A stretch of 34,846 bases of DNA, taken from assembly GCA_025351245.1 (NCBI GenBank), contig JANXWH010000064.1, positions 1-34,846 of the forward strand. Reading direction: 5' to 3'. Below the pieces are notes generated by a model that had not been told where the DNA came from, made no database searches, and saw only the letters and a program-made list of their open reading frames with translations. Of this stretch, positions 6,825 through 11,545 are shown piece by piece. Both the position numbers and the translations under genes were made by a program. This DNA comes from Chloroflexota bacterium (GTDB lineage: Bacteria > Chloroflexota > Limnocylindria > Limnocylindrales > CSP1-4). Positions within the stretch are counted from its first letter, which is position 1. Every line of letters starts with the position of its first letter.

Positions 6825-7198
6825 TGGTGGAGATGGGGGAGGGTCGAACTCCCCGTCCGAAACCCGTGACTCGGGCCCACTACGAGCGTGTCCGATGCTT
6901 GATCTCGACCGACCCACCCCCATCGGCAGGGGCGATGATCGGTCCAGCTACGTGTCCCTAGATCGGGCTTCGCTCCCGGCTACGCGGCGCTTGCCGGGGC
7001 TGCATCCCCGCTGAGTGACGCTTCCACGGCCCACGAGGAGGAGGCCGCTTCCACGCTCACCTTACCGCCTAAGCGGCGAGGGCGAGAGCAGGCTGCTTGT
7101 TGGCAGTTACTTCGTTTTGCCGCCTTTTAACGAGGCCAGAGCGGCATCCTCGGCTCGCGTTCCCGGGCTGCAGGGCCCCGTCGAGACCACGCATCCCC
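6825..7198 (-). ncRNA. ssrA: tmRNA (transfer-messenger RNA)
   Basis: Minus strand begins GGGGATGCGTGGTCTCGACGGGG and ends GGGGAGTTCGACCCTCCCCCATCTCCACCA; 5' GGGGAUG pairs with 3' CAUCUCC; internal tag ORF ANKQPALALAA-TAG (7069-7104); lies directly downstream of smpB. Confidence 0.93.
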
Positions 7199-7346: not shown

Positions 7347-7814
7347 CTACGATCGGCCCCGGGCCGTGTCCGCCATCGTTCGGGCCAGGTCGCGCTTGGC
7401 ATCGCGCTCGGCGATCTCCCGACGACGGTCGTGGAGCTGCTTCCCGCGTCCCAGCCCGATCTCCAGCTTCGCGTGCCCGCGGCGGTCGATGAACAGGCGG
7501 AGTGGGACGATCGTCAGGCCCTTCGACTTCGTCTTGCCGAGCAGCTCGTCGATCTCGTCGCGATGAAGGAGCAGCTTTCGCGACCGCTTCGCCTCGTGGT
7601 TGAGGCGGTTGCCGCCGGCGAACGGGGCGATGTGGGCGCCGACGAGCCAGGCCTCGCCGCGGTCGATCCGCGCGTAGGCCTCCTGGAGGCTCACATGACC
7701 CGCCCGGATCGACTTGATCTCCGTGCCGGTCAGGACGAGGCCGGCCTCGAACGTATCCTCGATGGAGTACTCGTGGCGGGCCTTGCGGTTGAGGGCGATG
7801 GTCGATTCGCCCAT
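7347..7814 (-). CDS. smpB: SsrA-binding protein SmpB
   Basis: NRKARHEYSIEDTFEAGLVLTGTEIKSIRAGHVSLQEAYARI...EAWLVGAHIAPF; adjacent to tmRNA; GAGGAG upstream of ATG. Confidence 0.97.
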   Translation of the reverse strand: MGESTIALNRKARHEYSIEDTFEAGLVLTGTEIKSIRAGHVSLQEAYARIDRGEAWLVGAHIAPFAGGNRLNHEAKRSRKLLLHRDEIDELLGKTKSKGLTIVPLRLFIDRRGHAKLEIGLGRGKQLHDRRREIAERDAKRDLARTMADTARGRS

Positions 7815-7878
7815 CGGTGGCTGCTCCTCGTCGTGGCTCTGCGGTTGCTGACGCCGGAGTGAATCCGGGACGCACGAA

Positions 7879-7904
7879 GGCCGGCTCCGCTGCCGGAACC
7901 GGCC
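7879..7904 (-). other. Strong hairpin in smpB 5' leader
   Basis: Minus-strand GGCCGGTTCCG-GCAG-CGGAGCCGGCC, 11-bp stem with one G-U wobble. Confidence 0.6.
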
Positions 7905-7923
7905 CTCGAACGCGTCTCGAGTT

Positions 7924-7973
7924 GCCCACCCGCTGGGGCGTCCGTCAGGCGGATGCTCCCTGCGAGGTGGTGC
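7924..7973 (-). other. Long imperfect hairpin in smpB 5' leader
   Basis: Minus-strand gcaccacctcgcaggg agca TCCG ccTGA CGGA cg ccccagcgggtgggc: GC/CCACC/CGC/GGG segments pair, with an inner TCCG/CGGA stem-loop. Confidence 0.55.
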
Positions 7974-7998
7974 AACAACGCGGACTACTGTCTGTCAC
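7945..7998 (-). CDS. Putative 17-aa leader peptide MTDSSPRCCTTSQGASA
   Basis: GTG start preceded by AAAGGAGG at 9-nt spacing; TGA stop sits in the apical loop of hairpin 7924-7973. Too short for the ORF track. Confidence 0.4.
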   Translation of the reverse strand: MTDSSPRCCTTSQGASA

Positions 7999-8026
7999 TG
8001 CACATCACCTCCTTTCGGTTGGCGGA

Positions 8027-8055
8027 ACCGTACATGACGACCCGGGATCTGGCAA
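8027..8055 (-). promoter_or_regulatory. Candidate sigma70-like promoter for the smpB leader
   Basis: Minus-strand TTGCCA-N17-TACGGT (8055-8050 and 8032-8027), about 30 nt before the leader ORF. Confidence 0.35.
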
Positions 8056-8466: not shown

Positions 8467-9849
8467 TCAGGATGCCCGGGGCAGTGCCCCTATCGCGGCC
8501 GGCGCCCCGAGGGCCTTGAGCGCCGCGTCAATGTACGGGTCACCGGTCGGGGTGGTCGACGCGACGTTCGCCGCGACCGCGACGTCCGGGGTGAGGCCCT
8601 TCGTGTGGATCCAGCGCTTGGCCGGCGTGAGCCACTTCGCGATCGTCAGGCGGAACCCGCCCGAGTTGTCGGCCAGGTCCACCCACTGCTGGACGGTGCC
8701 CTTGCCGAAGGTAGTCTCGCCGACCAGCATGCCCCGCTTCGTGTCCTGCAGGGCGCCGGAGACGATCTCGCTGGCCGAGGCGCTCCCCTTGTTGACGAGC
8801 ACCATGACGCGGATGCCGGGGTCCGTGGCGACGCCGCCAGGCGAGGCGTCCGTCGCGACCTGTGTGCCGTCGGCGCTCTCCTCCCAGAAGAGGGGCCCAC
8901 CGGCGATGAACTGGCTGGCGATGGTGCGCGCCGCCGTCACGTAGCCGCCCGGGTTGTCGCGCAGGTCAACGATCACCGACCGCTCGCCCTTCTCGAGGCC
9001 GGCCCGGAGCGCGTCCGTGAAGTCCTTCGCCGCGTTGTCGGAGAACGCGGCGACCCGGATGTAGCGGACGCTGGCGTTCGCCAGGTCGCGCGTCTCCACC
9101 TGGGTCTGGACGATCGTGTCGCGGACGATCCGCAGGTCGAACGGCGCCTGCCCGGTGCGGGCGACGGTCAGCACGACCGGCGTGCCCTTCTTCCCCCGCA
9201 CCTTCGCGATCGCCTGGTCCAGCGTGAGGCCGTCCACGCTGGCACCCTCGATCGCGGTGACCACGTCGCCGGCGCGCAGGCCTGCCGCCTCCGCCGGTGA
9301 CGCCGCGATCGCGGAGACGACCGTCATCCGGCAGGTTGGCCCGAGGGTGGTGCAGGCACCGCCGACCGCGGCCGAGGAGCGAGCCGAGATCACGGCGCCG
9401 ATCCCCTCGAACTGGCCACCCAGGGCCTCGCGGGCGCGCTGGAGGTCGTCGGGGCTCATGTACAACGAGTAGGGGTCGCCCAGGGCCTTGATCATCCCGT
9501 CGATCGCGCCCTCGACGAGCTTCTTCCTATCCACCTGGCCGACGTAGCTCCGGTTGATCGAATCCCACGTGTCCCAGAACGGCCCGAAGAGCGCCTGGTC
9601 GGCGGCCGGCGTCCCCGGCGTTGTCGCCGTTCGCGCCCCGAGCGTGAAGCCGGAGAGAAACAGCGCGGCGCCGGCAAGCAGCGCCACGACCGCGAGGGCC
9701 AGCTGGAGCGACCCGACCCCGCGGCGAGGCGGCTGGCCGGGCGGGACGGCCGGGGTGACGGGTGGCAGGACGGCCGGAGTGACGGGCGCGGCAACCGCTT
9801 CGTCGCTCGAGGGCTCGGGGGGCGTGAAGTCTGGGTCAGGCGTGGTCAT
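8467..9849 (-). CDS. S41 family C-terminal processing peptidase (PDZ-containing, CtpA-like)
   Basis: PDZ segment AASPAEAAGLRAGDVVTAIEGASVDGLTLDQAIAKVRGKKGTPV; VNKGSASASEIVSGALQDTKRGMLVGETTFGKGTVQ catalytic region; N-terminal TM segment. Start set at ATG 9849. Confidence 0.93.
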   Translation of the reverse strand: MTTPDPDFTPPEPSSDEAVAAPVTPAVLPPVTPAVPPGQPPRRGVGSLQLALAVVALLAGAALFLSGFTLGARTATTPGTPAADQALFGPFWDTWDSINRSYVGQVDRKKLVEGAIDGMIKALGDPYSLYMSPDDLQRAREALGGQFEGIGAVISARSSAAVGGACTTLGPTCRMTVVSAIAASPAEAAGLRAGDVVTAIEGASVDGLTLDQAIAKVRGKKGTPVVLTVARTGQAPFDLRIVRDTIVQTQVETRDLANASVRYIRVAAFSDNAAKDFTDALRAGLEKGERSVIVDLRDNPGGYVTAARTIASQFIAGGPLFWEESADGTQVATDASPGGVATDPGIRVMVLVNKGSASASEIVSGALQDTKRGMLVGETTFGKGTVQQWVDLADNSGGFRLTIAKWLTPAKRWIHTKGLTPDVAVAANVASTTPTGDPYIDAALKALGAPAAIGALPRAS

Positions 9850-9856
9850 GGCAGGC

Positions 9857-10768
9857 TTACCTCGTGAGATAGCTTCGCACCGAGAGCCACGACCCCAGGA
9901 CCCCAACCCCCAGGCCGGTTCCGACCACCAGCAGGACCACGTCTCGCTGGAGGGAGCCGAACTCGAGGGGGAGGATCCGGAAGAAGCCGTACATGAAGTC
10001 AGTGACCGGCCCGGAGGCGACCGCGAGGACGGCCAGCGCTGCCGCGGCCCCCAGGAGTCCCACGAACGCGCCCTCGAAGATGAACGGCCAGCGGATGAAC
10101 GCGTCCGACGCGCCGACGAGCCGCATGACCTCGATCTCTTCGCGCCGGGCGACGACCGCCAGCCGGATCGTGTTGACGATGATGAAGAGGACCACGAAGC
10201 CGACGAGCACCAGGAGCACGAAGCCTCCGGTCCGCAGCACGCCCGTCACCGTCGTCAGCTGCTGGACCAGTTTCTGGACCTCGACCACGTCGTCGACGAC
10301 GCGGCTGCGGTCCTGGAGCAGCTGGACGATCGGCTGGTACTCCCGCGGGTCAACCAGCTTGACCTCCAGGCTGGCCGGGAGCGGGTTGCGGTCCAGGAAT
10401 CCCGTCAGGTCCACCTGGCCGCGCTGTCGCAACCGATCGCGGAATCGCGCCAGGGCCTCTTCCTTCGAGACGTAGGCGACGGACCGGACGGAGGGCAGCG
10501 CCGCGACGTCCGCGGCGAGGGCCACGGCCTGCACGGTGAGGGACCCCTCGGCGCCCGCAACGTCGTGGAGGTCCGCGACGATCTCCACCTTCTGCTCCAC
10601 GTACTGGACGCCCGCCGCCAACCCCGCCTGGACCAGCCAGAAGCCCGCGAGCAGGAGAAGCATCAGGAGCATCGTCGCGGTGGCCGCGAGAGTCATCAGG
10701 CCGTTGCGGCGGAGCCCCTGCAGGCCGCGGGTGACGCTGAACGTGACGAAACGGAGGAAGCCGAACAC
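9857..10768 (-). CDS. ftsX: Cell division protein FtsX (permease-like)
   Basis: Four-TM FtsX architecture; RREEIEVMRLVGASDAFIRWPFIFEGAFVGLLGA; adjacent to ftsE. Confidence 0.93.
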   Translation of the reverse strand: MFGFLRFVTFSVTRGLQGLRRNGLMTLAATATMLLMLLLLAGFWLVQAGLAAGVQYVEQKVEIVADLHDVAGAEGSLTVQAVALAADVAALPSVRSVAYVSKEEALARFRDRLRQRGQVDLTGFLDRNPLPASLEVKLVDPREYQPIVQLLQDRSRVVDDVVEVQKLVQQLTTVTGVLRTGGFVLLVLVGFVVLFIIVNTIRLAVVARREEIEVMRLVGASDAFIRWPFIFEGAFVGLLGAAAALAVLAVASGPVTDFMYGFFRILPLEFGSLQRDVVLLVVGTGLGVGVLGSWLSVRSYLTR

Positions 10769-10771
10769 GGC

Positions 10772-11545
10772 TCAGTCGTCGCGGTGGTAGCCGCCGACCT
10801 CGTCGCGGACGACGCGCCCCTCCTCGAGCGCGACGACCCGGCGGCGGAGGGCGGTCACCACGCCGGCGTTGTGGGTGGCAATCAGGATCGTGACGCCCAG
10901 CTCGTTGATCCGGAGCAGGAGCTGGAGGATCTCCCAGCTGATGAGCGGGTCCAGGTTCCCCGTGGGCTCGTCGGCGATGATCAGGCGCGGCTCGTGGACC
11001 AGGGCGCGGGCGATCGCCGTCCGCTGCTGCTCGCCGCCGGAGAGCGTGGGCGGCAGCTGGTCCGCCTGCGCGCCGAGCCCGACCACCGCGAGCGCCCGAT
11101 CGACGGCCGGCCGGATCCGCCCACGCGGCGTGCCGGTCACCTCGAGAGCGAACGCGACGTTCTCCCGGACCGAGCGCGCCGGCAGGAGCTTGAAGTCCTG
11201 GAAGACGATCCCGATCTTGCGGCGCAGCTCGGGGACTTTCCGGCGCGGCACGCGCGCGAGGTCACGCCCGTCAAGGATCACCTCGCCGGTCGTCGGCAGC
11301 TCGTCGCGGATCAGGAGCTTGAGGAGCGTGGACTTGCCGGCGCCGGATGGCCCGACAAGGAAGACGAACTCACCTTCCCCCAGGCTGAGGTCAACGTCGC
11401 GGAGGGCCGCCGTGCCGTTCGGGTAGACCTTGCCGACGCCACGCAGTGCGACGACCGGACGGGCCACTCCTGACGTGCCCGCGGCCGCGTGGTCCGGCGA
11501 TGGATCGAGCGCGGCGGCAGGTCGGAGGATGGTGGGGGTCGTCAC
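10772..11545 (-). CDS. ftsE: Cell division ATP-binding protein FtsE
   Basis: VALRGVGKVYPNGTAALRDVDLSLGEGEFVFLVGPSGAGKSTLLKLL...LSGGEQQRTAIARALVHEPRLIIADEPTGNLDP. Confidence 0.95.
   Translation of the reverse strand: MTTPTILRPAAALDPSPDHAAAGTSGVARPVVALRGVGKVYPNGTAALRDVDLSLGEGEFVFLVGPSGAGKSTLLKLLIRDELPTTGEVILDGRDLARVPRRKVPELRRKIGIVFQDFKLLPARSVRENVAFALEVTGTPRGRIRPAVDRALAVVGLGAQADQLPPTLSGGEQQRTAIARALVHEPRLIIADEPTGNLDPLISWEILQLLLRINELGVTILIATHNAGVVTALRRRVVALEEGRVVRDEVGGYHRDD

Follow-up and report, generated by a model that had tools for sequence, protein, structure and literature searches.

A conserved, apparently translated leader with alternative Shine-Dalgarno/anti-Shine-Dalgarno helices upstream of smpB in a class of Chloroflexota

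The window, the whole 34,846-nucleotide stretch of contig JANXWH010000064.1 that was analysed (Chloroflexota bacterium, assembly GCA_025351245.1), carries smpB and, directly downstream, ssrA on its minus strand, preceded by a structured leader. The features, all on the minus strand, are as follows.

8050..8055, minus: -35 element TTGCCA; its T, T and G positions are kept in 77, 77 and 80 of 81 non-redundant class leaders
8027..8032, minus: -10 element TACGGT, 17 nt from the -35 element; predicted transcript start near 8020
8004..8016, minus: extended Shine-Dalgarno sequence (SD) GAAAGGAGGTGAT, 13 nt, containing AAAGGAGG; near-invariant across the class
7945..7998, minus: leader short ORF (sORF) MTDSSPRCCTTSQGASA-TGA, 17 codons, GTG start; frame test on 55 distinct ORFs
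7964..7974, minus: anti-SD TGCACCACCTC within the sORF; its pairing partners are 8011-8006 and 8003-7999, which gives helix P1
7924..7973, minus: helix P2, a long hairpin with the TGA in its loop; z = -3.8, arm permutation test 0/5000
7879..7904, minus: helix P3, an 11-bp GC hairpin in the position of a leader terminator; z = -5.5, orthologues in sister families T-tailed
7347..7814, minus: smpB, 155-aa ORF with its ATG at 7814; PF01668 match, E = 3.2e-58
6825..7198, minus: ssrA (tmRNA, tag ANKQPALALAA), found by ARAGORN and Rfam RF00023

A sequence-only reading had already placed the promoter, the SD, the 17-codon ORF, both hairpins and the smpB ATG on this strand, and each was recovered at the position it had been given. 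The stability of the hairpins, which that reading had left to be compared with shuffled sequence, exceeded that of dinucleotide shuffles for the whole leader (7870-8025, z = -4.7), for P2 (7973-7924, z = -3.8), and for P3 (7904-7879, z = -5.5). The orientation of smpB and ssrA was identical in 21/21 loci where both were seen, and no further copy of the leader was found at a meaningful E-value in the genome of the window. Upstream of the leader, S41-type protease-, ftsX-, and ftsE-like genes, named from their ORF translations only, occupy 8467-11545 of the minus strand in the same orientation as smpB-ssrA.

The leader was matched by DNA similarity in 34 of 41 genomes (that of the window and 40 relatives), and the SD block was present in 130 of the 151 genomes of the class. 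When the search started from smpB, the leader was seen before 34/34 class smpB genes with readable upstream DNA, a count that takes in one variant recognised by eye (L251) and leaves outside it L252, which is cut, and L250, which is masked with part of the leader visible; the SD lay 138-283 nt ahead of the smpB start. When it started from the motif, the leader was upstream of smpB in each of the families f1, f2, f3, f28, and f29. The common layout in the class is a promoter, the 13-nt SD, an ORF of 13-28 codons, a GC-rich hairpin, and then smpB; the variants that the motif search passed over (g75, g77, and g82) deviate mainly near the start codon. The element is therefore kept class-wide, and the lack of conservation in relatives, which had been set beforehand as a possible refutation, was not what we found. 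The literature searched, which left most subscription journals outside its coverage, yielded no earlier description of such a leader before smpB or arfB, in agreement with the earlier remark that none was known before smpB.

In the promoter, the -35 TTG and the -10 TAnnnT positions hardly vary. The second-position A and the sixth-position T of the -10 element were each present in 81/81 non-redundant class leaders, the spacer between the -35 and -10 elements was 17 nt in 64 of them, and the distance from the -10 element to GAAAGG was 9-11 nt. This distance, together with the conserved promoter, places the predicted 5' end of the RNA 3-5 nt before the 13-nt SD. The 3' end of the 16S rRNA of a relative (G010) is GGCTGGATCACCTCCTTTC, to which the SD GAAAGGAGGTGAT is fully complementary.

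Across 55 distinct leader ORFs, the distance from the start codon to the anti-SD was 17, 20, 23, or 26 nt and that from the anti-SD to the stop codon was 25 or 28 nt, a single frame being kept throughout, and all insertions and deletions ahead of the stop codon were multiples of three; for the non-coding distance from the stop codon to P3, all three residues modulo 3 were populated (21/19/13). In addition, the stop codons interchange (TAG 27, TAA 19, TGA 9), and the GTG start is swapped for ATG in L217, L231, L242, and L251, with the SD spacing shifted in some. The frame-preserving indels, the interchangeable stop codons, and the GTG/ATG starts strongly suggest that the leader ORF is translated. 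The peptide itself is loosely conserved (MxDS..RCTTSQExxA/V in f1, MSSSCHATTEAVR in f3, and M.DASGxPKTQ.. in f28), and the constraint on the sORF coincides to a large extent with the anti-SD pairing.

The sequence-only reading had proposed the supply of Cys-tRNA as a signal, from a Cys-Cys pair in the window peptide. Together with the Cys codon that lies within the anti-SD of most f1 members, this pair is what would favour an amino-acid-specific attenuator, in which ribosomes stalled on Cys codons (or others) would control smpB. However, the Cys-Cys pair is confined to a few members; the Cys is usually single, gives way to Arg in L015 and to Ile in L025, and is missing from both L213 and L217 and from the majority of f28 ORFs. 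Its retention in most f1 members is accounted for by the overlap of the TGC codon with the conserved anti-SD pairing, and a conserved run of regulatory codons was not found in the leader ORFs. A Cys-responsive leader is thus rejected on conservation, and we regard amino-acid-specific attenuation of any kind as highly improbable.

Helix P1, which had been overlooked in the sequence-only reading, is formed by the SD (8011-7999) and the anti-SD inside the ORF (7974-7964). In the window its predicted energy is -21.4 kcal/mol (z = -3.6), and it was the RNAalifold consensus choice over 34 leaders. Because P1 and P2 both use the anti-SD strand, they are mutually exclusive. The arms of P2 paired better with their own partners (mean -34.5 kcal/mol) than with permuted ones (-29.6 kcal/mol), and 0/5000 permutations were as good, relatedness not having been removed; a compensatory example is the change of CCACC/GGTGG to CCATC/GATGG in L022 and L031. 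The two arms of the long hairpin, for which the earlier reading had suggested a search for covarying pairs, thus co-vary, kinship included. These comparisons suggest that the conserved switch is the pairing of the SD with the anti-SD versus that of the anti-SD with the sequence downstream. In f28 and f29 (L200-L208 and L251), the leader ORF ends in an SD mimic of its own, CTGAGGTGATCGCG, which is able to pair with the anti-SD and can be regarded as a putative variant of the P1/P2 switch.

The hairpins orthologous to P3 in f3, f28, and f29 carry T-rich tails (for example, GGCTCTTTCCTTTC and GCCGCCGCTCTTTCTTTTTG), and by sequence the last leader hairpin in these families is clearly a predicted intrinsic terminator, a correspondence that the sequence-only reading had not noticed for P3. 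In L209, smpB begins only about 24 nt past the terminator tail, so that smpB there must be read through from the leader promoter. The tail of P3 in the window (TTCGTGCGT) is T-poor, as are the f1 tails as a group (UUCGUGCGU), and the hairpin of the window family, whose tail is weak, did not come up in the terminator scan; we infer that P3 in the window may nonetheless act as a terminator. An antiterminator was sought in 38 modelled leaders, with the ribosome absent or on the start or stop codon, and none was found: the predicted pairing of the terminator was 0.61-1.00 and changed little in the models with a ribosome on either codon. A classical antiterminator is therefore rejected as a simple answer, since the terminator pairing stays high at every modelled ribosome position. 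The attenuator layout proposed by the sequence-only reading stands in part: a frame-constrained translated ORF and alternative hairpins do lie before smpB, whereas a classical terminator/antiterminator switch gained no support, the modelled terminator barely responding to ribosome position.

The T-poor tails of f1 and the missing antiterminator would also fit a translational mode of control, in which the leader, with its strong SD and hairpins, sets the translation of smpB or the stability of its mRNA, and P3 is protective or insulating. Nevertheless, the anti-SD pairs with the SD of the leader itself, not with that of smpB, and the counterpart of P3 is clearly a terminator in f3, f28, and f29 as well as before arfB, which makes this mode quite unlikely in our estimate. 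We have high confidence that the element is a genuine cis-leader and is translated, and moderate confidence that it acts via premature termination. Comparison gives good support to the ORF, its frame, the mutual exclusivity of P1 and P2, the location ahead of smpB, and the terminator of the sister families.

A scan of named genomes for the SD block gave matches mostly in Alphaproteobacteria, where the complementarity of the leader SD to the 16S rRNA is lengthened to GAAAGGAGGTGATCCAG. In Rhodobacteraceae, the SD block heads an 18-codon ORF (MSRxxLExGVGT...), which is followed by a terminator and then by arfB (L042, L045, L046, L072, L086, L139, and many of L256-L294). This gene, which was identified via its GGQ-containing sequence, encodes the peptidyl-tRNA hydrolase of alternative ribosome rescue. 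Starting from arfB, the leader was present at 24 of 30 Rhodobacteraceae loci (22 by pattern, and L286 and L289 by eye); starting from the motif, 32 of 39 genomes had arfB behind it in the same orientation, at a distance of 177-332 nt, the coordinates having been compared by hand. The leader was absent from the arfB genes examined in other Alphaproteobacteria (L259-L264). SmpB and ArfB are non-homologous rescue proteins, and the use of one leader design for two unrelated rescue proteins favours ribosome state as the signal over autoregulation by the protein. From this sharing we infer that the sensed quantity is ribosome state. Homology and convergence of the smpB and arfB leaders both fit, because the 16S 3' end dictates the SD block.

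Like the ribosome-mediated attenuators of the trp/ilv type, the smpB leader has a short translated ORF amid alternative helices and, clearly in f3, f28, and f29, a predicted terminator before the regulated gene; unlike them, it has neither a regulatory codon run nor a detected competition between terminator and antiterminator, its helices open and close the SD of the leader itself, and its target is a ribosome-rescue gene. The polycysteine leader ORF attenuators of actinobacteria consist of a small Cys-containing ORF in the 5' leader; in the smpB leader Cys is not conserved and the target differs. A related survey in actinobacteria has been published (PMC1262725). The feature that defines the erm-type translational attenuator, sequestration of the SD of the downstream gene, is absent, as the conserved P1 covers the SD of the leader itself. 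The regulation of arfA and brfA by trans-translation, described for brfA in PMC11633108, is alike in that the expression of a rescue factor is tied to the state of translation; there, however, the rescue ORF itself is read from a non-stop mRNA, whereas the smpB leader has a separate sORF whose stop codon is always kept. These comparisons suggest that the leader is a variant on the leader-attenuator kind, most likely controlling a ribosome-rescue gene.

The window leader gave a full-length, sub-threshold match to the Rfam family RF01867 (CC2171), at 35.4 bits and E = 2.3e-6; against the gathering cut-off of 75, membership in the family was rejected. Both the SD-like 5' block and the terminal hairpin of RF01867 were aligned in the leader, and no CC2171 match was obtained in other class members within a 61-genome phylum sample. 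Both RNAs have CGAAAGGAGGUGAU..CAGUG at the 5' end and a GC-rich hairpin of the terminator type at the other, are of similar length, and carry an in-frame sORF. CC2171 differs in being free-standing instead of preceding smpB, in its inner helices, and in its annotation as non-coding. Units of the CC2171 type in other Alphaproteobacteria likewise appear free-standing. At loci of the MSHC type (L060, L062, L067, L084, L112, and others), an in-frame ORF of 21-26 codons follows an SD of 17 nt that is complementary to the 3' end of the 16S rRNA, and the anti-SD-like TGGA element was in frame with the MSHC... ORF in each of the 25 sequences, out of 41 examined, in which it could be located. The constant frame of this element suggests that the CC2171 'sRNA' family, annotated as non-coding, is probably translated into a small peptide. 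In Caulobacter, two formerly predicted ncRNAs proved to be translated (PMC4117421).

This resemblance also bears on whether the smpB leader works chiefly as a short terminated transcript, an sRNA or small mRNA acting in trans like CC2171, with smpB merely receiving read-through. The full-length match and the many alphaproteobacterial copies that are free-standing, end in a terminator, and have no rescue gene behind them point that way. A trans-acting RNA would leave unexplained the fixed link to smpB throughout the class and, separately, to arfB in Rhodobacteraceae, and we consider this explanation unlikely.

We instead favour, as reasonably probable, a cis-acting translated leader through which ribosome state sets the expression of SmpB and possibly of tmRNA too. 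Transcription would begin a few nucleotides ahead of the 13-nt SD, so that a ribosome may be captured once the RNA emerges. With a 30S subunit bound, the short ORF would be translated and the anti-SD left available for pairing with the sequence around and past the stop codon (P2); with no ribosome bound, the anti-SD would close the SD (P1). P3 would terminate most transcripts and let a regulated share of them continue into smpB, sORF translation presumably tuning the read-through at P3. The signal would be ribosome availability or translation state and not an amino acid, most plausibly with more rescue factor made when ribosomes are stalled or scarce; our confidence in the exact signal is low to moderate. 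To our knowledge, how the levels of the ribosome-rescue machinery are set is largely unknown apart from arfA/brfA, and a conserved leader before the rescue genes of two phyla (smpB and arfB, respectively) would be a direct regulatory tie between ribosome state and rescue capacity. More tentatively, these elements may be widespread RNA sensors of ribosome availability, in which a copy of the 16S anti-SD within the same RNA molecule vies with the ribosome for access to a near-maximal SD, the result of this contest setting rescue-factor output (SmpB in Chloroflexota, ArfB in Rhodobacteraceae), the free-standing RF01867 copies being translated reporters of the same signal.

Relatives of the module also stand alone, with no rescue gene after them, so that rescue control is not its only use. 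In Bradyrhizobium (L053, L116, L119, and others), another free-standing unit of related type codes for a 14-aa peptide, MSxxKRCHLAGIAR, that hardly varies and whose ORF contains an anti-SD; a rescue gene was not seen behind this unit. Within the phylum the motif is rare outside the class (20/251 genomes, 16 of them of the window's own family), and the spread beyond the class in Chloroflexota came to two clear extra matches only, L189 and L190, with smpB absent within 1.5 kb. In L189, which belongs to another Chloroflexota family, the SD block is followed by an ORF of 24 codons, right after whose stop codon comes a perfect anti-SD, CATCACCTCCTTTCG, and the unit apparently precedes a biotin-ligase-like gene.
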